Shown here in pieces: positions 7,821-53,294 of a stretch of 63,719 nucleotides of DNA. How positions within the stretch are numbered: position 1 is the first letter of the stretch; each line of letters starts with the position of its first letter. The position numbers and the translations under genes were made by a program. This DNA comes from a virus, in IMG/VR virus record IMGVR_UViG_3300036851_000548, positions 1 to 63,719 of that record. The stretch is one strand, 5' to 3'. The notes beneath the pieces are model-generated. The model was not told the origin of the DNA, made no database searches, and was given only the letters and a program-made list of their open reading frames with translations.

Positions 7821-7841
7821 ACGCTAGCGCGGGGGGCGGCT
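7821..7841 (-). promoter_or_regulatory. Promoter P1 (AGCCG-N10-TAGCGT)
   Basis: AGCCG at 7837-7841 and TAGCGT at 7821-7826, exactly 10 bases apart, as in 14 other sites. Predicted start near 7814, giving a leader of about 34 bases with AAGGAG before the protease gene. The box is the AGCCG variant. Confidence 0.45.
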
Positions 7842-10215
7842 AACCCTGGGCGATGCGTCTCCGGAGTGCGGCGATCCTGTCCTGCGCGGCATCGACCTCG
7901 GCTGTGGCACGCTTGACCGCGCGGTCGTCTTTTGCGCGTCTCGCCCTTGTCCGCTTCGCCCTCACTTCCGTGCTGTGTCCGAGGACGCGAGGGAGTTCCT
8001 TCCGCGCGTCCTCGGCCGACATGTCGGTGACGGGCGTCCGCGCGTAGTCGGGAAGGAGGTCGTCCGCGGCAGGGGGCGGCACGGCTCGCGACTCGGGGGC
8101 CGAGCGTACCGTCGGCTCCGGCACGGCTAGCCTTTCGAGCGGGTCTCGGTCGGCGGACGCGGCCCGCGGGGCCTTCTCGTCCAGCACGCGTGCCGCGCGG
8201 GGGTTCAGGATCACGACGACGCTCGGGTTGCCCTGCCACGTCGTCTCTATCGCGTCGTACCCGTCCTTCACCATGAGTTCCCTTGCGCGCTTGAGCGCGC
8301 CGTCGCGATCGAAAACGTCCTCCATCTCCCACGCCTTTTGGTCGTATCGGTTCAGGAAGTTGAGCAGCTTCTTGGAGTCGTCCTCGGCCTTGAACACCTT
8401 CCGGGCGTTCACCGCGATCTCCAGGTTCTCGCTGCCGTATCTGTCCTTGCGCGCTTTCTGCGGCGTCGTGTAGAGGCCGTGGCCGAGCCTGATGTTGACG
8501 GACTTAGAGGGGTCGAACCCGCTTGTTTTGATGCCGCGCGCCCCGGCGAGGTTCGTCTGGTGGAAGACGGTCGGGGTGTCCCCGTATGCGCTGCCCGCCG
8601 TCCAGTCCGCGACGTCGTCCGGGTGGATCACGGTCGCGGACGGCAGGTCGATAGTGCGGGCGGCGGAGGTGGTGCAGGAGACGTTGAGCATCTCGTCTGG
8701 GTCGGGGGCGCTCCACCCGGCCGGTCCAGCCGCGGTCAGGGACGCAGCGATCCCGACGAGTGCGGCTTCGACGCGCTGCGTGTCCTCGTGCCCGGCGGCG
8801 CACGGGTGGTTCCCTCCCGCGGACGCGGTGACGGCCTCGGGGTCCTGCGTGTACCCCATCGCGCAGCGGCAGTTGCAGACCTCGGCCGGTGGCCCGGACG
8901 GGTCGCCGGGGTGCTCCAGGGAGGCGCCACCGACGTCGAAGTAGCCGTCGAGGGCGCGCGTCTGGCCGTCCAGGCCCGCGTAGGTCGCGTGCCGCGGGTA
9001 CTTGGCGCCGCGGGCGGTCATCCACGTCTTGAAGAACGCCTCGCCGGTCGCCTCCGCGACGATCCGGGTCGCAGCGAGGCTGCCGCCGTTGACGGCCCCG
9101 GCCAGTTCGGTGCGGGCGATCAGGCGCGCGCGGGCGGGTGCGGCCTCCCTCATCTTCGCGCGGATCGCGGCGGCGGTGTCGTCGATCGAGAGGCCCTCCT
9201 CGTGCGCGGCCCGGATGACGCGCATCACGTCCAGCTGCGTCGTCAGGGAGATGTGCCCGATCTGGCTGGCGGACTGCGCGAGCACCCGCTGCGCGACCGG
9301 GTGCGTGACGTCGAAGGAGAGGCCGACCCCCTCCAGGCTGGCGCGCATCATCGTCCGGACGACCTCCTGCCGGACGGGGTCGGTGCGCGTCCGCAGCTGC
9401 GCCGGGAGGCAGTAGCGCTCCTCCCCAGCCGCCGCGAGCGACGCGGTCGCGGCGGGGCGCCCGACGAGCGGGACGGGGACGATCTCGGTGTCGCCGCGGA
9501 CGACGAGCAGGTCGTCGAAGTGGAGCGGCGACCCGGACAGCGGCAGCATCTTCTCCAGCTCGCCGGGTTCGGGGTCGCCGTCGACGGTGATGTGCGCCTC
9601 GAAGCCGTGGTCGCGGCTGTAGCCGACCCCGGCGTCGACGAGCGCCTCGGTGACGGCGACGCGGAGCTCGACCAGGCCGGGCACGTCGGGGAGCAGGATC
9701 CCGACGCTGGAACCGTCGGGCATCCCGAACTGGCCGTATCCGCCGACCTGCCCGGCGAGCGGGGCGTGCTCGGCCGCCACGGCGGCGAGCGCGTCCGCGA
9801 CGGGGCGGAGGTCGCCGTCGACCTCGCCGAGGTAGCAGAGCGTGACGTGGAGGTTCTCGGCGGGGCCGCCGTCAGGGTCGGCGATGGCGGCGGCCTCGTC
9901 GGGACGCGGCTTCACGGCGACCATCGTGGAGTTCGCCTTCACGTCGACGGCGGCGGTCAGCGACATCGAGGCGAGGAGCCGCCTCGCCTCCCGCATCCCC
10001 ATCTTCTCGGCGGCGCGGACGTCGGCGGCGCGCAGGCGGGCGGCGGCGGCGAGGTGGTCGACCGCGAGCGCGGAGAACGCGCGGGCGGCCTCGTCCCCGG
10101 CGCGTTCGAGCACCGGCTCCAGGATCCGGGCGAACTTCTCCTCCATCTCGCGCGCACGCCGCTCGCCCTGCCGGAGCACGGCGTTGTGGCGGGCGGCGGA
10201 GGGCGCGTCCGGCAT
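7840..10215 (-). CDS. MuF head protein fused to 2H phosphoesterase and ART-like domain
   Basis: 791 residues; ATG overlaps the portal stop by 1 base (TGATG). Order: helical N-terminus (1-85); a 2H phosphoesterase (LigT/2'-5' ligase-like) domain with HVTL (123-126) and HITV (208-211) about 80 residues apart; a Mu gpF-like minor head domain (about 270-455) ending in the Cys cluster CNCRC (447-451); then a C-terminal domain (about 545-680) with FHQT (H552), GHGLYTTP (578-585) and YDAIET, a layout typical of ADP-ribosyltransferase toxin domains; last, a charged tail. MuF proteins sit at the portal, and MuF-toxin fusions are known from temperate phages. The 2H calls rest on clear motifs; the ART call is weaker. 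Confidence 0.75.
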   Translation of the reverse strand: MPDAPSAARHNAVLRQGERRAREMEEKFARILEPVLERAGDEAARAFSALAVDHLAAAARLRAADVRAAEKMGMREARRLLASMSLTAAVDVKANSTMVAVKPRPDEAAAIADPDGGPAENLHVTLCYLGEVDGDLRPVADALAAVAAEHAPLAGQVGGYGQFGMPDGSSVGILLPDVPGLVELRVAVTEALVDAGVGYSRDHGFEAHITVDGDPEPGELEKMLPLSGSPLHFDDLLVVRGDTEIVPVPLVGRPAATASLAAAGEERYCLPAQLRTRTDPVRQEVVRTMMRASLEGVGLSFDVTHPVAQRVLAQSASQIGHISLTTQLDVMRVIRAAHEEGLSIDDTAAAIRAKMREAAPARARLIARTELAGAVNGGSLAATRIVAEATGEAFFKTWMTARGAKYPRHATYAGLDGQTRALDGYFDVGGASLEHPGDPSGPPAEVCNCRCAMGYTQDPEAVTASAGGNHPCAAGHEDTQRVEAALVGIAASLTAAGPAGWSAPDPDEMLNVSCTTSAARTIDLPSATVIHPDDVADWTAGSAYGDTPTVFHQTNLAGARGIKTSGFDPSKSVNIRLGHGLYTTPQKARKDRYGSENLEIAVNARKVFKAEDDSKKLLNFLNRYDQKAWEMEDVFDRDGALKRARELMVKDGYDAIETTWQGNPSVVVILNPRAARVLDEKAPRAASADRDPLERLAVPEPTVRSAPESRAVPPPAADDLLPDYARTPVTDMSAEDARKELPRVLGHSTEVRAKRTRARRAKDDRAVKRATAEVDAAQDRIAALRRRIAQG

Positions 10216-12113
10216 CAGCCCAGGAGACCGGCGACGTAGTTCGTGAACGTCGAAGGAAGCGGGCCGGGCCGCTCCTGGTAGAGCGTGCGGACGGCGTGCT
10301 GCTCGACGGCCTGGACGACGCGCTCGACGAGGTCCTCGTCCGCGATGCCGTAGACGCGGAGCGCGTCCGCGATCAGGTCGCGGCACCCGGCCACGAGCGC
10401 GGCCTCGCTGCCGTTCAGGGAGCGGACGCGGTCGCGGCCGAGGATGGCGGCGACCTGGCCGGGCCGGACGCCGTCGATCGCCTCCAGCATCTTCGGGTCG
10501 CGCTTCGCGAGCGACCGGATCCGGTTTCCGGCGGCCTCGCGGGCGCGGAGCAGCGACAGGTCGGCGGCGCCGAGGACGCGCGCGACCGTCGCCGCGGAGA
10601 CGAGCGACGAGTCGTCGCGCTCGCCGGGCGGCTCGGGCGGCTCCTTCACGGCCTCCGCCGAGGAGGTGCCCGCGTCGATCGTGTCGTCGGCCGCGGTGGC
10701 GCGGCTCAGGTCCTCCTTGTCGCTGACGTGGCCGGTGACGGCGAGGACGCCGTCGTTGACGGCGACCCCGATCCGCCGCGTCATCTCGTCGGGGTCGGTG
10801 ATCGCGTCGCTGTCGTCGAACCCGGCGGCGTCGCGGAGGCTGGCGTCGCTGATCGCGAGCGACTTGTGCAGGTCCTTCGCGTCCTTCGTCCGGTCGGGGT
10901 GGTTGATGATCGCGGCGGCGTCGTAGCCGATGTAGAAGTCGCCCCAGTTCGTGACGCCGTCGGCCTTCAGCTGCGGCCGGAAGTACGCGGCGGAGAGGTC
11001 ATCGACGAGCTGCTGCGCCTTCGGCTGCAGGTGCCCCTTCCACGTCTGCTCGTCCACCTGCCACGCCGACCAGTGGTTCGCGTCGCCGAGGCCCATCAGG
11101 ATCTCGACGGGCATGTCGAGACCGATCGCGATCCGCTTGATGCACTCGTAGCGGAGGCCGGTCTCGGGGTACAGCTGCATCGGGTCGACGATCTGCAGGT
11201 GGTAGACGAGGTCCTTGACGGGGCGCGTCTCGTCGGTGGGCATCCGGACGACGAGGGGCACGACCGATGACGCGGCGCCCTCGTCGACGATCGGGGTCGT
11301 CATCGCGTCCACGAGGTCCTTCACGAACGGGTCGGCCTCAGGGTCCTCGTCGCCGACCGGCTCCGGCGGCGGCGGGCTGACTCGGTCGTCGATGAAGAGG
11401 ACGCCTGACCCGGCGAGCCTCGACTTCGCGCGCGCCCGCACCGACTGCGTCAGCAGGACGAGCTCCTCGCAGAGGTCGAGGACGCCCTGCATGGTCGAGT
11501 CCGCGAGCTGGGAGTAGCGCGGGTGCCGCTGCCAGAGCCTGTACGCGACCGCGTCGGTGTCGCCGACCGGCTCGAAGTCGGCCTCGCCGAGGTCCTTGTA
11601 GTTCTCGGCCTGCAGCGACGGCGCCTTCACGCGCAGGTACGTACCGCCCTGGATCCTCAGCTCGTCCGACGACAGCATCTCCCACTGCTCCATGTCGGTC
11701 TCGGGGTTCTTGGAGACGAACAGGATCGACTCGCCGGTCAGGAACATCAGCCGCCCGTAGGCGGAGAGGAGCGCGGTGCGGCCGCCGCCGGGGTCCTGCA
11801 CCCGCGCGAGCGCGTCGACGGCCTGCGGGTCGTCGGTCTCGACCAGCTCGCCGTCCTTCATCACGGCGGGGAAGAGCCGCAGCTGCGAGAGGCCGCGCGA
11901 GTAGAACTGCGCCGCGTACTTGATCTCGCCGAGCATGTCGTAGTAGGCGAACGCGCGCGACTGCCACGGCTGCACGAGGCGGCGGACGTCGTCGCCCTGC
12001 TTCTTCGCGTTGACGCGGGCGCCGGACGCCGTGAGCGCGTTCGCGCTCCTGTAGGCGGACGCGCCCGGGTTCAGGATCCGGGAGGCGGGCGGCCGTCGGC
12101 GGAGGATCGCCAC
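10215..12113 (-). CDS. Portal protein
   Basis: 632 residues, the usual portal size, from GTG. The region with 'RLMFLTGESILFV', the 'YPETGLRYECIKRIAIGLDMPVEILMG' segment and 'NHWSAWQVDEQTW' match actinophage portal proteins. It forms the dodecameric vertex ring through which DNA enters the head. It is directly followed by the MuF protein (1-base overlap), the classic order. Confidence 0.9.
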   Translation of the reverse strand: MAILRRRPPASRILNPGASAYRSANALTASGARVNAKKQGDDVRRLVQPWQSRAFAYYDMLGEIKYAAQFYSRGLSQLRLFPAVMKDGELVETDDPQAVDALARVQDPGGGRTALLSAYGRLMFLTGESILFVSKNPETDMEQWEMLSSDELRIQGGTYLRVKAPSLQAENYKDLGEADFEPVGDTDAVAYRLWQRHPRYSQLADSTMQGVLDLCEELVLLTQSVRARAKSRLAGSGVLFIDDRVSPPPPEPVGDEDPEADPFVKDLVDAMTTPIVDEGAASSVVPLVVRMPTDETRPVKDLVYHLQIVDPMQLYPETGLRYECIKRIAIGLDMPVEILMGLGDANHWSAWQVDEQTWKGHLQPKAQQLVDDLSAAYFRPQLKADGVTNWGDFYIGYDAAAIINHPDRTKDAKDLHKSLAISDASLRDAAGFDDSDAITDPDEMTRRIGVAVNDGVLAVTGHVSDKEDLSRATAADDTIDAGTSSAEAVKEPPEPPGERDDSSLVSAATVARVLGAADLSLLRAREAAGNRIRSLAKRDPKMLEAIDGVRPGQVAAILGRDRVRSLNGSEAALVAGCRDLIADALRVYGIADEDLVERVVQAVEQHAVRTLYQERPGPLPSTFTNYVAGLLG

Positions 12114-12365: not shown

Positions 12366-12803
12366 CTACGCCGTGCCCGGCGGGTCCTTCAGACCGAGTC
12401 GGGGGGCGGGGCGCTCCCCGACCGTGAGCGTCCCCTGCAGCGCCCGCGCCCCGGCGGCTGCGGCTCCGACGATCGCGGCCGTCAGGAGCGCGCGGACGGC
12501 GGCGAGGTCGGGGGCCTCCAGCGCACCGGGAAGCGTGATCAGGAGCGAACTCAGGAAGCCGTGCAGGTACGAGTCGGCCCATTCGCCGTAAGGGTCGACG
12601 ATCCAGTGGCGGACGGAGAGCTGCGGGACGAACACCTGGACGGCGCGGATCCCGGCGGCGGTGGACGCGAGCAGCGCGGCCAGGCCGAGCGACCGCATCG
12701 CTTGCAGGTCGGGGGCGGCGAGGACGCCGGGGGCGAAGACGACGAGGGCGCCGACGAACACGCGCAGGAACGCGCGGCCGGTGGCGGAGAGCAGGGAGCG
12801 CAT
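12366..12803 (-). CDS. Membrane protein with internal duplication, possible holin
   Basis: 145 residues from an ATG with GGAGG upstream. Two halves repeat one plan: a hydrophobic helix, 'APDLxAxR' and a second Ala-rich hydrophobic helix followed by 'RAVQ' or 'RALQG'. This gives about four membrane segments. Size and topology fit a holin, but no lysin is adjacent, so this is tentative. Promoter P2 lies upstream. Confidence 0.55.
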   Translation of the reverse strand: MRSLLSATGRAFLRVFVGALVVFAPGVLAAPDLQAMRSLGLAALLASTAAGIRAVQVFVPQLSVRHWIVDPYGEWADSYLHGFLSSLLITLPGALEAPDLAAVRALLTAAIVGAAAAGARALQGTLTVGERPAPRLGLKDPPGTA

Positions 12804-12986: not shown

Positions 12987-13062
12987 TAGCACCGGCGGGA
13001 TTCGAACCCGCGACCTCCGCGTTATGAGCGCGGCGAGATGGGCCTGGCTTCTCCACGGTGCG
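12987..13062 (-). tRNA. tRNA with CAT anticodon, initiator-like
   Basis: A 76-base cloverleaf: acceptor 6 pairs plus a C1-U72 mismatch, D-stem GAGA/TCTC with A11-U24, anticodon stem CCGCG/CGCGG with loop CTCATAA (anticodon CAT), variable AGGTC, T-arm GCGGG-TTCGAAT-CCCGC and discriminator A. The 1-72 mismatch, A11-U24 and the TGGAG-AGCC-GG D-arm match bacterial initiator tRNA rather than elongator Met or Ile2. The three G-C pairs above the loop are present but as GCG/CGC, not GGG/CCC. CCA is not encoded. No other tRNA was seen. Confidence 0.85.
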
Positions 13063-13067
13063 GGCGC

Positions 13068-13088
13068 ATCGTAGCGCGGCGGGCGGAC
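13068..13088 (-). promoter_or_regulatory. Promoter P3 of the tRNA (GTCCG-N10-TACGAT)
   Basis: GTCCG at 13084-13088 and TACGAT at 13068-13073 with a 10-base spacer. The predicted start (13061-13062) coincides with the mature 5' end of the tRNA at 13062. Confidence 0.55.
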
Positions 13089-13136: not shown

Positions 13137-13304
13137 CTACTCGGCGTCCGGCTCGGCCTCGTCGCCGTCGCCCGGCTCGCCGTCCGCGGCGGGGTCGTCC
13201 GCGCCCGCCCCGGCTTCGTCGTCGGCGGTCGTCTCGGGGTCGGCGCCGGTGCCGCCGTCGCCGTCGCCGCCGGACTGCGTCTCGTACATGATGTCGCTCT
13301 TCAA
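13137..13304 (-). CDS. Small, very acidic protein
   Basis: 55 residues from TTG with AAAGGAG 5 bases upstream; the in-frame ATG five codons later is too far from that site. More than a third of residues are Asp or Glu in a Gly/Ala/Asp low-complexity run. Not recognised. Confidence 0.45.
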   Translation of the reverse strand: MKSDIMYETQSGGDGDGGTGADPETTADDEAGAGADDPAADGEPGDGDEAEPDAE

Positions 13305-14075: not shown

Positions 14076-14288
14076 TCAGGTGATGTCGGCCGCGTTCGGG
14101 TCGTCGCGGGCTATCGCGATCAGCCAGCCTGCCGCCCACAGGAGCAGGGGGACGGCGATCCAGAGCTCGGCTGGCCCTTCGATCGCCAGGAACGTGAACA
14201 CGAGCGCCGCCAGCGCCGCGACGAGTCCGGCGACGAACAAGCGCCTGCTGTAGACGGTGATGCTGAGGACTGTGCTGGTCTCGATCAT
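14076..14288 (-). CDS. Two-helix membrane protein
   Basis: 70 residues; ATG with AAGGAGG, overlapping the epimerase stop (ATGA). Two hydrophobic helices (about 18-40 and 45-62) separated by a short acidic turn. First of several tiny membrane proteins interleaved with the glycan genes. Confidence 0.55.
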   Translation of the reverse strand: MIETSTVLSITVYSRRLFVAGLVAALAALVFTFLAIEGPAELWIAVPLLLWAAGWLIAIARDDPNAADIT

Positions 14289-15181
14289 GTTGCCTCCTTC
14301 TCGTTGAACCACTCGGCCGTCATGGCCAGACCTTCCTCGATCGTCGTCGCCGGTGCCCAGCCGAGCGCGGCGATCCTGTCGATGTTCGCGAGCAGGAACG
14401 GCGGCTCTCCCCCGCGTCCGTGTTCGAAGCGCACCGGCGCGCCCAGCATGTCGGCGACCTCGCGGGGGCTGCGCGCGGAGCCGGAGCCGACGTTGAGGAC
14501 GTGGATCCCGTCGAGCGCGAGCAGGTGCGCGTGCGCGGCGGCGAGGTCGCCCACGTAGACGAGGTCGCGCCTCTGCTCGCCCCGATTGTAGAGCGGCGCT
14601 GGCTCGCCCGTCGCGGCCGCCCGGATCAGCGCGGGCACGAGGTGCGTCTCAGGCCTGTGGTTCTCGCGGGGTCCGTACGGGTTGAAGTAGCGGAGCGAGC
14701 AGGCGTCCCACCCATAGGTGCGAGCCCACCCGAGGATCAGGTCCTCGGCAGCGAGCTTCGTCGCGGCGTACGGGGACGCCGGGGCCGCCGGGGCGTCCTC
14801 GGGGATCGGCCCGTCCGCAGACGCGAACCCGTACACGGCAGCGGTCGAGCTGTAGATGATCCGGCCGCACCCGGCCTCGCACATCGCGGCGAGGAGCGCC
14901 GCCGTGCCTCGCACGTTGGTCTCGAAGTACCCGCCGGGGTGCGCGCAGCTCTCCGGCACCGACGTCCTCGCGGCGAGGTGGACGACCGCGTCGACGTCGC
15001 AGTAGGCGGGAGCGAGGTCGGCGAGCGCGACCTGCGAGAAGGCGTCGATGTCCGCCCAGGCGTCCTCAAGCCGCGACGCGCTCAGGTCATCGACGACCTT
15101 CACCGAGTGGCCGTCGGCTTTCAGCGCAGCCGCGACGTGCTGGCCGACGAACCCCATGCCGCCCGTGACGAGGACCCTCAT
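14285..15181 (-). CDS. NAD-dependent sugar epimerase/dehydratase (GalE-like)
   Basis: 298 residues, the usual extended SDR length. Nucleotide-binding motif GGMGFVG (7-13), then 'VVHLAA', 'YSSTAAVYG' and the catalytic YAATK. It would epimerise or dehydrate a nucleotide sugar with NAD(P) in the cytoplasm, supplying the glycosyltransferases next to it. Starts at an ATG overlapping the upstream glycosyltransferase stop. Confidence 0.88.
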   Translation of the reverse strand: MRVLVTGGMGFVGQHVAAALKADGHSVKVVDDLSASRLEDAWADIDAFSQVALADLAPAYCDVDAVVHLAARTSVPESCAHPGGYFETNVRGTAALLAAMCEAGCGRIIYSSTAAVYGFASADGPIPEDAPAAPASPYAATKLAAEDLILGWARTYGWDACSLRYFNPYGPRENHRPETHLVPALIRAAATGEPAPLYNRGEQRRDLVYVGDLAAAHAHLLALDGIHVLNVGSGSARSPREVADMLGAPVRFEHGRGGEPPFLLANIDRIAALGWAPATTIEEGLAMTAEWFNEKEAT

Positions 15182-15945
15182 GCGCCGGGGGCGGGGTCGT
15201 AGATCAGCGTCTCGTCGGCGGCGGGGTCCTCGCGCCAGAACCACGTCCGGAAGTGCTCCAGGACGGCCTCGTCGGTGGCTCCCTGGAACATGCGCCAGTG
15301 CGCGCCGACGCTCGGATCCATGCCGGTGGCGGCGTAGGCGCGCTCGCCGTTCCGGATCTTGCGGAGGTACTGCTCCGGGCTGCGCCAGCTGTAGTGGCGG
15401 ATGACGAGGCCGGACGAGGTCACCCCGGTGCCTGGCGCCCAAGCGGAGTGGTTGCCCATCCGGATCTCCAGGCCGGGGCGGGCGCGGCAGCAGACCTTGC
15501 CGAGCGCGCCGTGCTCGCGCTGCCTCCACCCGATCCGCAGGAACGGCGACGGCTCGTCGGCGGGATCGAGCGCGGACGGTATGTGGTTGTAGAGGTCGGC
15601 GGTAACGAACGCGACGTCGGGAGCGAGTCCGGCGAGGAACGCGGCGAGGGTGCGGCCGTCGGGGGCGTACCAGTACTCGTCGGCGTCGCAGGGGATGACC
15701 CAGTCGAAGCCGCGGGCAAGCGCGTGCGCCGCGAGGTCGCTCGTCTTGCGGTCCTGGTAGTAGCCGACCTCGGGGTCGTCGATGACCTGCAGCGGCCCGC
15801 CGATAGCGCGGAGGACGTCGCGGGTGCCGTCGGTCGAGCCGTTGTCCGAGACGATCACGTAGTCGACCTGCCCGAGCAGGTGCCGGACGGTGTGCCCGAT
15901 GATGTCGGCCTCGTCCTTGACCAGCATGACCGCGCAGACGCTCAT
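15178..15945 (-). CDS. Family 2 glycosyltransferase
   Basis: 255 residues. 'MLVKDEADIIGHTVRHLL', 'VSDNGSTDGT' and the metal-binding 'PCDADEYW' give the GT-A fold of family 2. No membrane segment. It transfers a sugar from a nucleotide sugar to an unknown acceptor. Tightly coupled with the epimerase. Confidence 0.85.
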   Translation of the reverse strand: MSVCAVMLVKDEADIIGHTVRHLLGQVDYVIVSDNGSTDGTRDVLRAIGGPLQVIDDPEVGYYQDRKTSDLAAHALARGFDWVIPCDADEYWYAPDGRTLAAFLAGLAPDVAFVTADLYNHIPSALDPADEPSPFLRIGWRQREHGALGKVCCRARPGLEIRMGNHSAWAPGTGVTSSGLVIRHYSWRSPEQYLRKIRNGERAYAATGMDPSVGAHWRMFQGATDEAVLEHFRTWFWREDPAADETLIYDPAPGA

Positions 15946-34521: not shown

Positions 34522-34877
34522 AGGTCGGCCCCGGGGAGCGCGATCACGGCGAGCCGCTTGTCCGCGATGGCCCGCTGCAGGCGGAGGTGGCTGACGCGGG
34601 TCGTGACGAGCACTATCCCGTCGATCTTGCCCGTGTCGAGGTAGCGGCGCAACTGGCGGGCGACCTCCCCGGCGCTCCCGCTCGTCTTCACCTCGACCGC
34701 GACCCGGTCGACGAGGACGTCGGGGCGGCAGCCCTTCGCGATCGTGACCTCGCGGCGGGGGCTGAACCCGGCGTGGAAGAGCGCCGCCGCGACCCCGGCC
34801 TGCAGCGCGTCCTCGCTGGCGTACGCGAACCTGTAGGCGCGGATGGCGTGCTCGACCTGCCGGAGGGCGTCGGTCAC
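34518..34877 (-). CDS. PD-(D/E)XK-like nuclease
   Basis: 119 residues. 'CRPDVLVDRVAVEVKTSGS' holds the D...ExK core (about 50-68), and the following helix fits the restriction-endonuclease fold. GTG overlaps the stop of the methyltransferase, and its own end overlaps the helicase start. Confidence 0.72.
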   Translation of the reverse strand: MTDALRQVEHAIRAYRFAYASEDALQAGVAAALFHAGFSPRREVTIAKGCRPDVLVDRVAVEVKTSGSAGEVARQLRRYLDTGKIDGIVLVTTRVSHLRLQRAIADKRLAVIALPGADL

Positions 34878-36412
34878 GCGTCCGCCAGGAGGTCGAGCTG
34901 CCCGGACGCGGCGACCTGCTCGCGCGCGGCGTCGGCGCGCTCACGGGCGCGAACGTAGTCGAGGGCGCCCTCGCCGTGCTCCGCCCAAAACCGGATCCGC
35001 GCCTCCGCGATCCGCATGTAGCCCGGCTCTCGCTCGACCCCGACGAACCGATGGCCGTCGATCGCGGCGGCACAGCCGGTGGTGCCCGAGCCGAGGAACG
35101 GGTCCAGCACGACTCCTCCCGGCGGGGTCACGAGCCGGATCAACCAGCGCATGAGCGCGATCGGCTTCACGGTTGGGTGGCCGTTGCGGGAGGTCCGGTC
35201 GGTGCCTTCGGCCTGGAATGTGCCGGGGCTGGCGTCGCCGCTCGACCAGTTCAGCGGCTGCGCGTCGAAGCCCTCCAGCCCGGCGTTCCGCTCGGCACGG
35301 CTGACCTTGGCGCAGTAGAAGAAGCGGGACGCGCCGCCGGAGTCGCCGTAACTGGGTGGCATCTCGTCTTCGCCTTCCATCCCGTAAACCTGATGTGGCT
35401 GCCAGCGGCGCGGCGTTCCGCCCTTGTTTCCGGCCGCGTGAAGGTGCTCGGTCTGCTCGTCGAGCGCCTCGGCGGCGTCCTCGTCGAGCAGCACGTTCGC
35501 GGGCCAGCGCCCCACCTGCCCGTCCTCGGCCGCGACGGCCTGCGACCTGAACTCCTCCCGCCCCGGCGACGCATTGAAGCGGACGGGTTCGTCGGGATCG
35601 CGGCCTGCGTTCGACGTGCCCCAGACGCCGTCGCCCTTCGGCCCCGCGACGCGGCAGGCGTCCACGTTCAGCGCCCCGGTCCCGTGCGCCAGCACGTTCG
35701 CCGCCACCGTCCCGTCGAGGGGCTTCCTCGCCAGCACGATCGGCTCGAACGCGGGCTTCAGCGCGGTCCCCCATCCCTGGACGGCACGAGCCTCCTCGGT
35801 CTCCGGCTCGTACACGTGGCGGAGACCGTCGGGGTTCTCTGGGCTGGCGTGGAACGTCTGCCCGATCCTCGGCCCCTCCTTCTCCTCCTGCCGCCGGACG
35901 CCGCCGCGAATGAAGTGGTCCTCGCGTCGCCAGCCGCCCTCCGCGCCGAGCACCTTGTCGACGGCACGGGCGACGTCGTGGCTTTTCGGGAACCCGCTGC
36001 CGTACATCCAGGCGAGCGTGTCGCGGATCTCGAACCCGGCGTCCTCGACCCCGGAGACCATCCGGTGGTAGGTGCGCGTCCCCGCGAAGCAGAGCAGGTG
36101 GCCGCCGGGCTTCAGGACTCGGTACGCCTCCTGCGCCCACGCCTCCGTCCACATCTGGAAGGCGCGGTTCCCCGTCGCGCTCACGTCGTAGATCCCCGCC
36201 GACTGCGCGCCGTTGCCGAAGTCCCCGCCGTCAGCGTCCCGGCCGAGGGAGCGGCGACGCTCGACCTCCCGTTCTATGTCGGCGCCGTCCCACGACTTCC
36301 CCATGAAGCGGATCCCGTACGGCGGGTCGGTCACGACGGCGTCCACGCTCTCGGCTGACAGTCCGCGCATGGCCTCGACGCAGTCGCCGAGGATCAGGGT
36401 CGGCTCGCTCAC
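34874..36412 (-). CDS. DNA methyltransferase (DPPY type), paralogue 1
   Basis: 512 residues from GTG. Motif IV 'TDPPYGIRFMGKSWD' near the N-terminus, the middle substrate region, and C-terminal motif I 'VVLDPFLGSGTTGCAA' give the class-beta order of N6-adenine or N4-cytosine enzymes. Close paralogue of 51888-53294 (same 'GSGFPKS' and 'KPAFEPIV' segments). Confidence 0.88.
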   Translation of the reverse strand: MSEPTLILGDCVEAMRGLSAESVDAVVTDPPYGIRFMGKSWDGADIEREVERRRSLGRDADGGDFGNGAQSAGIYDVSATGNRAFQMWTEAWAQEAYRVLKPGGHLLCFAGTRTYHRMVSGVEDAGFEIRDTLAWMYGSGFPKSHDVARAVDKVLGAEGGWRREDHFIRGGVRRQEEKEGPRIGQTFHASPENPDGLRHVYEPETEEARAVQGWGTALKPAFEPIVLARKPLDGTVAANVLAHGTGALNVDACRVAGPKGDGVWGTSNAGRDPDEPVRFNASPGREEFRSQAVAAEDGQVGRWPANVLLDEDAAEALDEQTEHLHAAGNKGGTPRRWQPHQVYGMEGEDEMPPSYGDSGGASRFFYCAKVSRAERNAGLEGFDAQPLNWSSGDASPGTFQAEGTDRTSRNGHPTVKPIALMRWLIRLVTPPGGVVLDPFLGSGTTGCAAAIDGHRFVGVEREPGYMRIAEARIRFWAEHGEGALDYVRARERADAAREQVAASGQLDLLADA

Positions 36413-38286
36413 GCAGCGTGAGGCCCGTCGAACAGGGACGGCTGCGCGTCGTCGCGGGGCCGCGCGCGGGCGGGTTCCTTCCACCACCGCGCGACTCTGG
36501 CCTCGCACAGCGCGGCGTACTCGGGGTTCAGTTCGACGCCGACGGCGCGGCGGCCGAGGCGGAGCGCGGCGACCGCCGCCGTGCCGCTGCCGATGAACGG
36601 GTCGAGGACGGTGCACGGCTCGACCGCGACCTCGGGAGGCGGGGGCACGTGGACGCGCTCCAGCAGGCCGCGCTCGATCCACGACTCCAGCAGCAGGTGC
36701 GGCACCGGCCGGGCACCGGAGCGGTCGGCGCGGACGTAGTGGGCGAACGCCTCCCTCCCGGCCTCGGACTCCAGCACGTCGACGAGTTCGACTTCCTCTA
36801 TCGCACGCAGCTGCGCCGCGTACGCCTGCTGCTCGTAGCGGGTGATGGTGCGGACGCCCTCGTCCTCGGCCCGCTCGCGCTCGAATCCGGCCCGGCCGAC
36901 CTCCAGCGTCGGGTCGGCGGCGGGGGACTCCCCGAGGGGCGTCTCGATCGGGGTCCGGTCGACGCCGTCACACGCGCACGTCGGCTGCCACCCGATCGTG
37001 CGGTTTGCGCGGACGTGCTTCAAGGTGGAGCCGCCGTCGAGTCCGCGCTCCTCGCGGCCGCCGATGCCGATCTCGTACTGGCTGGCGCCCTTGGCGCTCC
37101 ATGTGCCCTCGGGCAGCTCCGGCTCGCCCTTCTCGATGATCCGCGCCCACGGCGCGCCGCAGCCGGTGCAGCAGCCCTTCTCGCTCGTCCCGGCCCTGAT
37201 CGCGCGGGCGGCGAGCTCGACGGGGAAGGTGGCGAAGTGGGCGGACGGGTACGGCTGCGTGGCGATGTCCCAAACGGTGGTCGCGAGCGACTCGTCTCCG
37301 ACGCGCATCGCGTCCGCGAACACGTCGGCGAGCCACGCGGCCTCGTCCTCGGCCTCCTGCGCGATCTGCCAGACGCCGCGCATGTTGCGGGTGGCGACGC
37401 CCTCCATAACCCCGCCGGGGCTGTGCCTGACGGTGTGGCCGTTTGCGCCGCCAACTCGGTCGGATCGGACGCGGTCGGGCTGGACGCTCGGCTCCTTCAC
37501 GGCCTCGGCGTCGTAGAAGTACATAGGGCGCTTCGAGAGCAGGAAAACGTACTCGTGCGCGGTCGTCGGCCTGTCGGCGACGCTGGCGGGCATCGCGTTC
37601 CTCTTCCACCAGATGATGTCGGCGCGAAGCCACCAGCCGTCGGCGCGAAGCGCGGATGCGACCGACCACGGGATTCCCGCGAGGTCCTTCGGCTTCAGTC
37701 CCTCGACGGCCGGGGGCCGGACGTTCGTGCCCTCCCCGACCCCGCCGCGCTTCCGGTCTACCGTCTGCGGCGTACGGCGCGCGGTCACATTCGGCCGGTG
37801 CGGGCCGTCCTGCTTCCAGCCGCGCTCGGTCGCGATCGACTGCGACGTGTTGTAGGTGCTGCTCGACGCGTAGCTGTCGCCGAGGTTCAGCCAGACCGTG
37901 CCGTCATCGCGGAGGACTCGGCGCACCTCCCGGAACACGTCGACCATCGCTGCCACGTACTCGTCGGGGGTCGGCTCCAGCCCGATCTGCTGGTCGACAC
38001 GGGAGGCGCCGCATTTCGAGCACGTCTGTCCCATCGGTTCGCGGTCCTCAGCGTTCTTCACGTCGGCGTAGCCCTCGCCCCAGTTCTGATTCAACTTCGA
38101 CTTCGTACGAAACGGTGCACCGAGGTGGTCGCAGTCGGGACTGCCTCCTTCCCATGTGCCTGTGCCGTAGTCGCGGAGGCCGAAGTAGGGCGGGCTGGTG
38201 ACGACGCAGTGGACGCTGGCCTCGGGGAGGGTGCGCAGTTGCTCGCGTACGTCGCCCACCAGGAGCGTGAATCCCTCGGTCGTCAT
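36409..38286 (-). CDS. DNA methyltransferase (SPPY type), with zinc finger
   Basis: 625 residues. 'VVTSPPYFGLRDYG' (SPPY, seen in N4-cytosine and some adenine enzymes), 'VWLNLGDSY' and C-terminal 'LDPFIGSGTAAVAA' (motif I). Cys pairs 'CSKCG' and 'CCTGCG' suggest zinc sites. The ATG lies about 3 bases after the predicted start of P8, so it is leaderless and heads the downstream methylation genes. Confidence 0.87.
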   Translation of the reverse strand: MTTEGFTLLVGDVREQLRTLPEASVHCVVTSPPYFGLRDYGTGTWEGGSPDCDHLGAPFRTKSKLNQNWGEGYADVKNAEDREPMGQTCSKCGASRVDQQIGLEPTPDEYVAAMVDVFREVRRVLRDDGTVWLNLGDSYASSSTYNTSQSIATERGWKQDGPHRPNVTARRTPQTVDRKRGGVGEGTNVRPPAVEGLKPKDLAGIPWSVASALRADGWWLRADIIWWKRNAMPASVADRPTTAHEYVFLLSKRPMYFYDAEAVKEPSVQPDRVRSDRVGGANGHTVRHSPGGVMEGVATRNMRGVWQIAQEAEDEAAWLADVFADAMRVGDESLATTVWDIATQPYPSAHFATFPVELAARAIRAGTSEKGCCTGCGAPWARIIEKGEPELPEGTWSAKGASQYEIGIGGREERGLDGGSTLKHVRANRTIGWQPTCACDGVDRTPIETPLGESPAADPTLEVGRAGFERERAEDEGVRTITRYEQQAYAAQLRAIEEVELVDVLESEAGREAFAHYVRADRSGARPVPHLLLESWIERGLLERVHVPPPPEVAVEPCTVLDPFIGSGTAAVAALRLGRRAVGVELNPEYAALCEARVARWWKEPARARPRDDAQPSLFDGPHAA

Positions 38287-38920: not shown

Positions 38921-39423
38921 CCGAGCAGACGAGCGAGGCAGGCGCGGGCAAGCAAGGGCGGGACGGCGTTCCCGATCTGCTCAAACTGCTTCGTGCGTGA
39001 TCCCTGCCACGGATAGTTCGGCGGGAACGACTGAAGTACGCTCGCCTCAGCAACCGAGATCCTGACCGCGTTCGTCTGGTGCGAGGGTGGCGTATCGCCA
39101 GCTACATACTCAGGGTTCCTGCCTACTCGGGTCGTCGCTGGAATGCGGGCGTCGCCAGCGACCGTCGGTGAGGGCCTCTGTTCGACCCACTCTTCCTTCG
39201 GCTTCGGGCCTGTCTGCGACGGCTGGTCGGACTCGGACCACACGGGGACGCCTTGCGCGAGTCCGGCCGCGAGCATCGTCGGGGCTGGTTCCTCGATCGG
39301 CCGCGGCTTCGCGCCGACCTGCCGCACATCCATGTGTGTCGGGTGCCCCTTCTTCCACGACTGCGGCGCGTCAGTGTGCTCGCCCTCGGGCGCGATCTTC
39401 CAGGCACCGGCGGCCTTCGGGGA
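38917..39423 (-). pseudogene. C-terminal part of C5-cytosine methyltransferase (shifted frame)
   Basis: This frame continues the protein of 39371-40897. It holds motif IX/X elements 'ISVAEASVLQSFP' and 'QIGNAVPPLLA', which a C5 methyltransferase needs. It joins the upstream frame at a run of four C (minus strand, 39419-39422) by a +1 shift. Either one base is extra (error or mutation) or the ribosome shifts. Confidence 0.7.
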
Positions 39424-40897
39424 CGAGCGTCGGCGCGGGTTCGTCGACGGAGCGTTCGTACGGTTCCATGTCCTCGGGGTCGCGGGACACGCTCATCGTG
39501 TTGTCGCCAGTGCGAAGCACCAGCGGCGGTGACTCTTCGCCCTCGACCTGCCACTGGCGGGCAGTGCTGCCGACCGTCGGCGCAGGCTGTTCCTCGGGAT
39601 CGACGGGGCCACGATTGAACTCGTCGCTGCGGCCGTCGTGAACGGTCCAGCTTCGCGCCTTTGAGGTCAGCGCCTGCGCTGGCATCTCGTCCGGCGCGAA
39701 CCCTTCCTCGGAGCGGTCACCCGAACGTTCCCGCTGTACCCACTGGACGTCGTTCATGCGGTGCCCGAAAAACATCGTCCCCGCCGGTTCGTCAAGACCG
39801 CGTACGGCAACGTTTTCCTGGTTGCCGTTCCGGAGCGCCACGTCCTCGACATCCTCGACGGGCAGGCCGTCGCCGTCGCCGACGACCCAACTGTCGGTCT
39901 TGCCGGTGACGACCCGGCTCGGCGCGTCGTTCGCGTCGAACACGTCGGTGGGGCGGCTGCCGTCCTCGCCGCGGGTTCGGATCGGGATCTGCTGGTCGTA
40001 GCTCCAGCGTGGTGTGTGGTGGCCGCAGAGGACACGGGCTGGTCTGTCCTCGGACGGCACCCAGCCGAGCGCCTCCGCCATGCTGATCCACGGCAGCAGA
40101 GCCTCGTCGCCAGCCACGATGATCCGCTGCCGTGGGCCAGGGTCGAAGAGCGTGGCGTGCCCGTTCTCCTTCGGCATCGGCACATACCGCTGGTGCGTCG
40201 GCTCAGGCGGACCGACCAGCCGCTCGCGATCAGCGAGCAGGATCGCCCGCTGCCGTGTCTGCGGCACCCCGAACTGCTCACTCGACAGGCAGCCCGTCCA
40301 CACGTTCCAGCCCGCGATCCTGAGTGCCTCGGCCATCTTCTCCCAGATCGGGAGGACGGGCGGCACCTGCTCCAGCGCGATCCACCGAGGCTTCAGCGCG
40401 AGCGACCACCGGAGCGGCTCCACAACGAGGATACTCATCTCTGCCTCACGGCGGGCCTTCACGGCTGCCTTCGCGAGGTCGGGTTCGCGACCTTTCCTTG
40501 TGGCCTTCTGGCGTTCCTCCTCTTGGGCGCGGGGGAGCAGTTCCGCGTAGGCACGGTCGCGTGACTCGGCACGGGTGTCCTGGCCGTTCAGGAGCGCGTC
40601 GATGCACTCGATGATGATGTCGATGACGACGTGGCCCGACCCTCCCCCTGCGTTTGAGAACGTCGGGCAAGGAGGCGACCCGATCAGGAGACGGCACGGC
40701 GCGAACTCCAGCGGGTCGAGCTCGAACACGTCCGCCTGCATGGTGCGGAGTCCAGCGGTGTTGCGTGTCGCGCAGGCCGCGTCGTCCCACTCGATGCCGA
40801 GCGGCTCGACGCCGAGTGCGAGTGCGCCGACATCCCAGCCTCCAGGCCCAGCGAAGAGGTCGAGTGCGTCCTCCATCACCTCCACGGTAGCCGTCAA
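39371..40897 (-). CDS. C5-cytosine DNA methyltransferase, N-terminal part
   Basis: 508 residues before the frame ends. Motif I 'LDLFAGPGGWD' (12-22), motif IV 'GSPPCPTFS' with catalytic Cys77, motif VI 'ALEQVP', motif VIII 'QTRQRAIL'. The target region has a series of degenerate blocks of the type 'PAPT-x(3-6)-SW'. Motifs IX and X are missing from this frame and lie in the +1 frame downstream. TTG start overlapping the HNH stop (TTGA). Confidence 0.82.
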   Translation of the reverse strand: MTATVEVMEDALDLFAGPGGWDVGALALGVEPLGIEWDDAACATRNTAGLRTMQADVFELDPLEFAPCRLLIGSPPCPTFSNAGGGSGHVVIDIIIECIDALLNGQDTRAESRDRAYAELLPRAQEEERQKATRKGREPDLAKAAVKARREAEMSILVVEPLRWSLALKPRWIALEQVPPVLPIWEKMAEALRIAGWNVWTGCLSSEQFGVPQTRQRAILLADRERLVGPPEPTHQRYVPMPKENGHATLFDPGPRQRIIVAGDEALLPWISMAEALGWVPSEDRPARVLCGHHTPRWSYDQQIPIRTRGEDGSRPTDVFDANDAPSRVVTGKTDSWVVGDGDGLPVEDVEDVALRNGNQENVAVRGLDEPAGTMFFGHRMNDVQWVQRERSGDRSEEGFAPDEMPAQALTSKARSWTVHDGRSDEFNRGPVDPEEQPAPTVGSTARQWQVEGEESPPLVLRTGDNTMSVSRDPEDMEPYERSVDEPAPTLVPEGRRCLEDRARGRAH

Positions 40898-51887: not shown

Positions 51888-53294
51888 CTACGAGGAGGCG
51901 GGTCGGGCGCGGCCGTGTGCGAACGCGTAGTCCGAGATCCGCGCCAGCGACGTCTCGTGGCTCGCAGGGTCGTTCTCGATCCCGACGAACCGGAACCCCT
52001 CCATCATCGCCGCACAGCCGGTCGTGCCGCTCCCGAGGAACGGGTCGAGCACCAAGCCGCCCGGCGGGGTGACGAGCCTGACGAGGTGCCGCATCAGTTC
52101 GATCGGCTTCACGGTCGGGTGGAGATTCCTGGTCGTGCCGCCGATCCGTTCGCGGCGGCGCGGCTTCGCGATGTAGAAGAACCTGGCGGCTCCGCCGTCG
52201 TCCGCGTCCGCCTCGTTCAGTTCCGCGACGGGACAGCCTGGCGCGCACAGCGTGGCCGTGTGCCGGGCGCCGTTGCCCTCGCAGTCGGGGAGGTGCGCGA
52301 GCAGCACGTTCGCGGGCCAGCGCCCGGCGTCGACGGCCTCCCTGACGGTCGCGCTCGGCGGGAAGTCGGTCGCGCCGTCCGTCTTCCCCTTGGGCCGCTC
52401 GACGGCGTGCGAACCCGGCTCCCCGCCGGGGCGGGCGGCGTCGATGTTGAGCGCGCCGGTTCCGTACGCGAGCACGGTCTCGGTGACGGTCCCCGCGAGC
52501 GGCTTCCGGGCCATGACGATCGGCTCGTGCGCGGGCTTCAGCGCGGTGCCCCAGCCGTCCCACTGCTGCGCCTCTGGCGTCACGGGGGTGCCCTTCGCGA
52601 TCGGCGCCTTCGTCGGAGAGAACACCTCGTTGCCGCCGTAGTCGGACACGACCCGGTCGGGCCGTTCGGCACCGGCGCTCTTATCGATCTGCTTCGACAC
52701 GTCGAGGCTCTTCGGGAACCCCGACCCGTAGATCCAGTGGAGGCTGTCGCGGATCTCGAACCCGGCGTCCTCGACCCCGGCGGCGAGCCGGTGGTACATG
52801 CGGGTCGCGCCGAACGCGAGGAGGTGGCCGCCGGGCTTCAGGACGCGGTACGCCTCGGCCGCCCACGCCTTCGAGAACTGCTCGAACGCGAGCACGTCCG
52901 GACTCGCCCCGGCGTAGGAGGGGACCGCGCGCCAGTCGGCCTTGTCGCCGCACTTGTGCGGGTTCCGGAACGCGTCCCGCTTCCCGCACGTCTGGCACTG
53001 GTAGGAGGTGCGGCGCCCGCCGAACGACGGCAGCTTGCCGTGCTTCGCGTCGCCGGGGTCGCCCCAGTTCGACTTCGACGGGTCGGCGCGCTCGGCGTTC
53101 GCCCAGCGCGGGTGCATCTCGACCTCGTCGTGGGGGATGAACCTGTCCCAGTCGCGGCCCATGAACTCGATGCCGTAGGGCGGATCGGTCACGACCGCGT
53201 CGACGGACTCGTCGGGGAGCGTGGCCATCACGGCGATGCAGTCGCCGAGCAGGATCCGCGCGTCGGGAGGGGCGGCGCGGCGGGGCCTAGCCAT
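51888..53294 (-). CDS. DNA methyltransferase (DPPY type), paralogue 2
   Basis: 468 residues. 'TDPPYGIEFMGRDWD' (motif IV) and 'LVLDPFLGSGTTGCAA' (motif I, C-terminal) give class-beta order. A zinc pair 'CQTCGKRD' is inserted after the first motif. Near relative of 34874-36412. The ATG overlaps the ParB-like stop. Confidence 0.88.
   Translation of the reverse strand: MARPRRAAPPDARILLGDCIAVMATLPDESVDAVVTDPPYGIEFMGRDWDRFIPHDEVEMHPRWANAERADPSKSNWGDPGDAKHGKLPSFGGRRTSYQCQTCGKRDAFRNPHKCGDKADWRAVPSYAGASPDVLAFEQFSKAWAAEAYRVLKPGGHLLAFGATRMYHRLAAGVEDAGFEIRDSLHWIYGSGFPKSLDVSKQIDKSAGAERPDRVVSDYGGNEVFSPTKAPIAKGTPVTPEAQQWDGWGTALKPAHEPIVMARKPLAGTVTETVLAYGTGALNIDAARPGGEPGSHAVERPKGKTDGATDFPPSATVREAVDAGRWPANVLLAHLPDCEGNGARHTATLCAPGCPVAELNEADADDGGAARFFYIAKPRRRERIGGTTRNLHPTVKPIELMRHLVRLVTPPGGLVLDPFLGSGTTGCAAMMEGFRFVGIENDPASHETSLARISDYAFAHGRARPASS

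Follow-up and report, generated by a model that had tools for sequence, protein, structure and literature searches.

The 63,719-base viral stretch analysed here (the window) codes for a single tRNA, a tRNA-Met(CAT) at 12987-13062 on the minus strand (ARAGORN), which probably serves as a phage initiator-like tRNA, supplementing or replacing the initiator pool of the host. Its anticodon stem carries C30-G40 in place of G30-C40, a swap that, to our knowledge, is otherwise known in an initiator only from a laboratory mutant.

Identity of the window tRNA

The gene matches Rfam RF00005 over its full length, with 55 bits (threshold 29) and an E value of 4e-9, in agreement with the single CAT-anticodon tRNA described in the initial annotation. 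Its cloverleaf is CGCACCG-TG-GAGA-AGCCAGGCCCA-TCTC-G-CCGCG-CTCATAA-CGCGG-AGGTC-GCGGG-TTCGAAT-CCCGC-CGGTGCT-A, and its features are the following, read from the sequence where no program is named.

12987-13062, minus strand: tRNA-Met(CAT), initiator-like, 76 nt, CCA not encoded (ARAGORN, Rfam RF00005, profile comparison)
13062, minus strand: C1, unpaired with U72 (12988), a formylation-type determinant
12987-12988, minus strand: U72 (12988) and discriminator A73 (12987)
13050-13053, minus strand: 5' strand of the D stem, GAGA, with A11 at 13052
13035-13038, minus strand: 3' strand of the D stem, TCTC, with U24 at 13036 pairing with A11
13029-13031, minus strand: GCG at positions 29-31, with C30-G40 in place of G30-C40 (the 'M1' swap)
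13019-13021, minus strand: CGC at positions 39-41, the partner of GCG at 29-31
13024-13026, minus strand: anticodon CAU within the loop CTCATAA (ARAGORN)

Pairing is Watson-Crick throughout the D, anticodon and T stems and in the six acceptor pairs below 1-72, and the bases next to the gene are TCC, with no templated CCA. The C1-U72 mismatch, A11-U24, the GCG/CGC stem and the absent CCA are thus all present as first annotated. A thermodynamic fold of the window tRNA did not recover the cloverleaf, its energy being no better than that of shuffles (z -0.8), so that the support for the tRNA comes from the covariance models and the comparison with other tRNAs.

Bacteria have three kinds of CAU tRNA: the initiator, the elongator tRNA-Met and tRNA-Ile2. 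Reference tRNAs were drawn from Actinomycetota genomes (29 initiators and 30 elongator CAU tRNAs) and from Chloroflexota (20 initiators). In a simple position profile built from the 29 actinobacterial initiators, 10 elongator tRNA-Met and 20 tRNA-Ile2, the window tRNA scores 36.3 bits as an initiator, 3.0 as an elongator tRNA-Met and 4.0 as a tRNA-Ile2 when all positions are used. Leave-one-out classed every reference tRNA correctly under the same conditions, the classes having been assigned by the analysis from sequence features and the retrieval patterns having fixed the D arm. If the D arm is omitted, the scores become 30.7 bits for the initiator, 15.2 for elongator tRNA-Met and 21.3 for tRNA-Ile2, and if 1-72 is also omitted, 27.9 bits for the initiator are left against 26.6 for tRNA-Ile2. 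The gap to tRNA-Ile2 then nearly disappears, which places the initiator identity on A11-U24 and 1-72.

Formylation is determined by an open 1-72, A11-U24, G2-C71 and C3-G70 (PMC7949028), and all of these are present in the window tRNA: 1-72 is C1xU72 and forms no Watson-Crick pair, 11-24 is of the R11-Y24 type, and G2-C71 and C3-G70 follow. CAU and A73, the features for Met charging, are also found. The C1xU72 mismatch had been listed as a peculiarity; it is real, and it is ordinary. In the comparison with host tRNA-fMet genes that the initial annotation had proposed, the 29 actinobacterial initiators show C1xU72 in 14 cases, C1xC72 in 13 and C1xA72 in two, and 9 of the 20 Chloroflexota initiators have C1xU72, C1xU72 being a usual state of the initiators in both phyla. 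All 30 elongator CAU tRNAs of Actinomycetota, a set defined by the C11-G24 D arm, have G1 paired with C72 or U72; the window tRNA has neither this pair nor C11-G24. The acceptor and D arm of the Ile2 type are likewise absent, and AUA accounts for 15 of 20,100 window codons (0.07%), so that a tRNA-Ile2 would have little work. An initiator-like identity is therefore supported, and assignment to tRNA-Ile2 or elongator tRNA-Met, which the initial annotation had named as the outcome against its reading, is disfavoured in both forms.

The anticodon stem is where the window tRNA departs from the host. Three G-C pairs (29-41, 30-40 and 31-39) are regarded as an almost universal mark of initiator tRNAs; here they are G29-C41, C30-G40 and G31-C39. 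Since a strict definition by the three G-C pairs fails in this one feature, the tRNA is filed as initiator-like.

The anticodon stem in hosts, phages and a laboratory variant

Among the matches listed, which come from 184 of 199 actinobacterial genomes, nearly every host initiator carries GGG/CCC, and those of Chloroflexota have either GGG/CCC or AGG/CCT. Their D stem is GAGC in all host initiators listed, extra or phage copies excepted, and the window tRNA has A13-U22 where host initiators have C13-G22. Two actinobacterial genomes hold copies with other unusual stems, being AGC/GCT in an extra initiator copy (G160:C149:4164-4201) and GTG/CCC, which includes a mismatch, in an initiator copy (G189:C17:58882-58919).

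The GCG/CGC stem together with an initiator-type D arm was found in 19 viral contigs but in only three contigs when 84,980 species were searched. One of the three is a Bradyrhizobium copy, whose tRNA recurs unchanged in an IMG/VR contig (L203/L223), and another is an Acidimicrobiales copy; both genomes have a second, usual initiator besides. The third contig (L205, 3.4 kb) has a major-head-protein gene adjoining the tRNA, which shares the GCG/CGC stem and is 87% identical to the window tRNA. Judged by these occurrences, initiator-like tRNAs with GCG/CGC seem to belong to mobile elements, although the Acidimicrobiales copy may or may not lie in one.

The same three pairs are found in M1, a laboratory variant of E. 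coli tRNAfMet with C30-G40 between G29-C41 and G31-C39, in which the A-minor contacts of 16S A1339 and G1338 are weaker, discrimination against CUG is reduced, and GUG and UUG complexes are about 10-fold less stable in E. coli (PMC11497404). However, M1 is engineered, whereas the window tRNA is natural and phage-borne, with C1xU72 and A13-U22.

The initial annotation regarded phage initiator tRNAs as rare, but one strict pattern (A11-U24, A13-U22, G26 and the CAU loop, with 1-72 left free) is matched in at least 118 viral contigs, and an annotated tRNA-fMet is present in T5. The statistics were taken from 96 distinct, well-folded members, among which some host DNA is possible since IMG/VR contigs are predicted viruses, and 100 phage CAU tRNAs with a C11-G24 D arm served as the control. 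The 1-72 position is unpaired in 77 of the 96 members, against 14 of the 100 controls (paired in 86), and the mismatches are diverse (CA, CU, UU, AA, AC and CC), whereas each of the pairs from 2-71 to 7-66 is kept in 94-96 of the 96. Because neither pattern fixes 1-72, its unpaired state speaks independently for selection of the A11-U24 class as initiators. Moreover, G2-C71 is present in 91 of 96 members and C3-G70 in 87. GGG/CCC is kept in only 11 of 96, although each of the five anticodon-stem pairs is still paired in 94-96 of them; G30-C40 occurs in 85 and C30-G40 in 10. U33 is near-universal in tRNAs and C33 is known from eukaryotic initiators; in this class C33 replaces U33 in 11 of 96 (for example L016 4365-4440, L083 1501-1576 and L084 1501-1576). 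The locus holds no other tRNA in 56 of the 96 cases, and 12 members lie within 300 bases of the locus edge. Searching with the host-type D arm (GAGC) instead gave a similar spread of stems, but these matches include prophage edges, where the initiator gene may be the attachment site of the host.

Among named phages, the tRNA-fMet of T5 (AY543070, 32428-32505) resembles the window tRNA in being phage-encoded, with an unpaired 1-72 (T1xT72) and A11-U24, and this annotated initiator also lacks the three G-C pairs (stem AGT/GCT). In contrast, it keeps G30-C40, encodes CCA and belongs to a large tRNA cluster, whereas the window tRNA has C30-G40 and stands alone among head genes. The tRNA-Met of Pseudomonas phage D3 (AF165214) is 80% identical to the window tRNA and has C1xU72, A11-U24 and A13-U22 in common with it, but differs in its GGG/CCC stem, C33, encoded CCA and position in a group of four tRNAs; it is labelled as plain tRNA-Met, and relatives of D3 likewise carry one. 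A tRNA-fMet is annotated among the 35 tRNAs of Erwinia jumbo phage pEa_SNUABM_47 (PMC7760394), for which later authors proposed a takeover of initiation (PMC9686651); this phage fMet, compared here by description, comes from a jumbo phage with a tRNA set unlike that of the window. Unannotated initiator-like tRNAs lie downstream of the large terminase gene in Xanthomonas phage Elanor (L548 582-657) and Pseudomonas phage PaMx74 (L550 579-654), and a 735-kb uncultured phage (L551, LR756501) has three tandem initiator-like CAU tRNAs followed by tRNA-Ile(UAU) at 479-822. In cells, some Mycoplasma and Rhizobium initiators reportedly lack the full set of three G-C pairs (Samhita et al. 2012); these are chromosomal and the cell's own, and are likened to the window tRNA by description only.

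A phage initiator with a non-GGG stem is thus already known as a kind from T5. On the other hand, the open-licence literature searched gave no direct report of phage initiator tRNAs with altered three G-C pairs, and neither the relaxed-stem class nor the natural M1 form seems to have been described there. Phage starter tRNAs of the altered type are mostly labelled as plain tRNA-Met or left unlabelled, and such labels may hide many phage initiator tRNAs.

Relatives of the window were found in one viral contig by the portal query and in 80 by the head-gene query. The contig with a 56% identical portal protein (L016) carries its own initiator-like tRNA near the corresponding genes, with C1xC72 and AGG/CCT; the synteny is approximate, the tRNA lying on the opposite side of a 145-residue gene. 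In the L027/L446 contig, a homologue of the 818-residue head gene of the window is preceded, about 10.7 kb upstream, by an initiator-like tRNA with C1xU72 and GGG/CCC. ARAGORN detected no tRNA in several relatives (e.g., L005 and L011). A13-U22 is common to the tRNAs of the window, L016, D3 and L205. That the stems differ between the window, L016 and L027/L446, which are related phages, suggests rapid change or repeated acquisition.

Proposed role and alternative explanations

As an initiator, the tRNA would be transcribed with the structural genes or from a -10-like element of its own, trimmed and provided with CCA by host enzymes, and charged with Met via its CAU anticodon. The host formyltransferase would then formylate it, given the open 1-72 and the presence of G2-C71, C3-G70 and A11-U24, and IF2 would place it in the P site. 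Because of the M1 swap, it should bind 16S A1339/G1338 less firmly than the host initiator does, and should therefore matter mainly when the latter is scarce. Such scarcity could arise at a late stage of infection, when initiation is in heavy demand, or after host toxins that cut tRNAs, such as VapC, have removed the initiator pool. According to Samhita et al. 2012, unconventional initiators are said to perform poorly beside a full host pool and yet to sustain E. coli alone. Growth under an fMet-cutting VapC is partly rescued by extra metZWV (PMC8522696). However, the window tRNA has an unaltered anticodon loop, the site of VapC cleavage, which counts against the proposed role. A 2023 survey indicates that, where an fMet-cutting VapC is known, phages generally avoid tRNA-fMet genes (PMC10264068).

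The initial annotation had also supposed many leaderless GTG/ATG starts, which an own initiator could favour. However, an overlap with the preceding gene is seen in 66 of the 106 called genes (4 bases long in 49), and 43 of the 106 starts have an SD-like motif in front of them, 2.5 times the background of 16%, so that the starts look mostly coupled or SD-led and not generally leaderless. GTG is the start codon of 59 of the 106 genes, and the instability of GUG and UUG complexes with M1 argues against help for these starts, at least on E. coli-like ribosomes, and counts against the initiator role. There was no sign of CTG starts, which M1 would tolerate, as in-frame CTG at the 4-base overlaps is mostly C followed by TGATG, with ATG as the start.

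A different use of the tRNA would be that of a decoy or modulator: once formylated, it would bind to IF2, to ribosomes or to a host nuclease, in order to disturb host initiation or absorb a toxin instead of starting phage proteins. Overproduced 3GC-mutant initiators disturb 30S biogenesis (PMC7949028), and the phage stems vary widely with pairing kept; nonetheless, the class retains its formylation determinants and mostly G30-C40, as expected under selection for P-site use, which makes this reading rather unlikely. It is still less probable that a host initiator was recently captured or is decaying without function. The tRNA is a lone one and some relatives appear to lack it, but its stems are perfectly paired below 1-72, its stem changes are compensated relative to every usual host initiator seen, and A13-U22 recurs in L016, D3 and L205.

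Very little probability is given to a tRNA-Ile2 (CAU with lysidine) or an elongator tRNA-Met; the near equality with tRNA-Ile2 outside the D arm and 1-72 stands against C1xU72 and A11-U24, the G1 of all elongator CAU tRNAs compared and the scarcity of AUA codons. It is scarcely credible that the tRNA is an attachment-site remnant, carried because the phage integrates there. Many contig-edge initiator genes of the host-type set do resemble prophage attachment sites; the window tRNA, however, is surrounded by head genes, with about 13 kb between it and the nearer end of the window, and its stem is unlike those of host genes.

Beyond the initiator role of this one gene, we tentatively consider a broader and rather doubtful proposal, in which phages of many lineages would carry initiator tRNAs freed from the three G-C rule, with formylation needs and stem pairing kept and stem identity lost, the natural M1 form of the window being an extreme with altered start-codon selection. 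The stem identity could be lost because these tRNAs would act once the host initiator is destroyed or outnumbered, for instance by fMet-cutting toxins, no competition being needed. A natural set in which the three G-C pairs are widely replaced and the 1-72 and formylation features are kept would separate two initiation checkpoints in nature, and it offers ready test molecules, some from cultivated phages (D3, Elanor, PaMx74 and T5). It also bears on why phages carry tRNAs, since replacement of a depleted pool can explain an initiator and codon supply cannot.

Gene neighbourhood and other genes of the window

The window has 72% G+C and 106 called genes, all on the minus strand, including genes for portal, head morphogenesis and head proteins, the large terminase, helicases and several DNA methyltransferases. 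Next to the tRNA are the following features.

10215-12113, minus strand: portal protein gene, downstream of the tRNA (phrog_776, E 3e-99)
12366-12803, minus strand: 145-residue gene between the tRNA and the portal gene, 63% identical to that of L016, no family match
13068-13073, minus strand: TACGAT, a possible -10 element, 5 nt upstream of the tRNA (judged by its letters)
13137-13289, minus strand: acidic ORF of 50 residues upstream of the tRNA (gene call), no family match

L016 has TACGCT at a similar distance upstream of its tRNA, and TANNNT occurs directly before phage initiator genes only somewhat more often than expected (35 against 24). A consensus scan gave no sigma-70 site for the window tRNA, and no terminator was found near it. 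The host is likely a member of Actinomycetota; the best matches of the portal protein are weak (27-35% identity) and come mostly from actinophages. None of the 25 of 38 Pfam families listed for the 78 other window proteins is translation-related.

The head-morphogenesis protein (7840-10215, minus strand) has an N-terminal 2'-5' RNA ligase/LigT-type (2H phosphoesterase) domain at residues 114-222 (PF13563, E 9e-8), fused to a Mu F-like part; this candidate enzyme for RNA ends or cyclic nucleotides, linked to the virion, merits attention. There are four large genes within 34874-38286, 39371-40885 and 51888-53294 with matches to phage DNA methyltransferases, as well as a protein with a match to the Mom DNA-modification family, which suggests heavy DNA modification. 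Also, nucleotide-sugar epimerase and glycosyltransferase genes (14285-15945) adjoin the structural genes.
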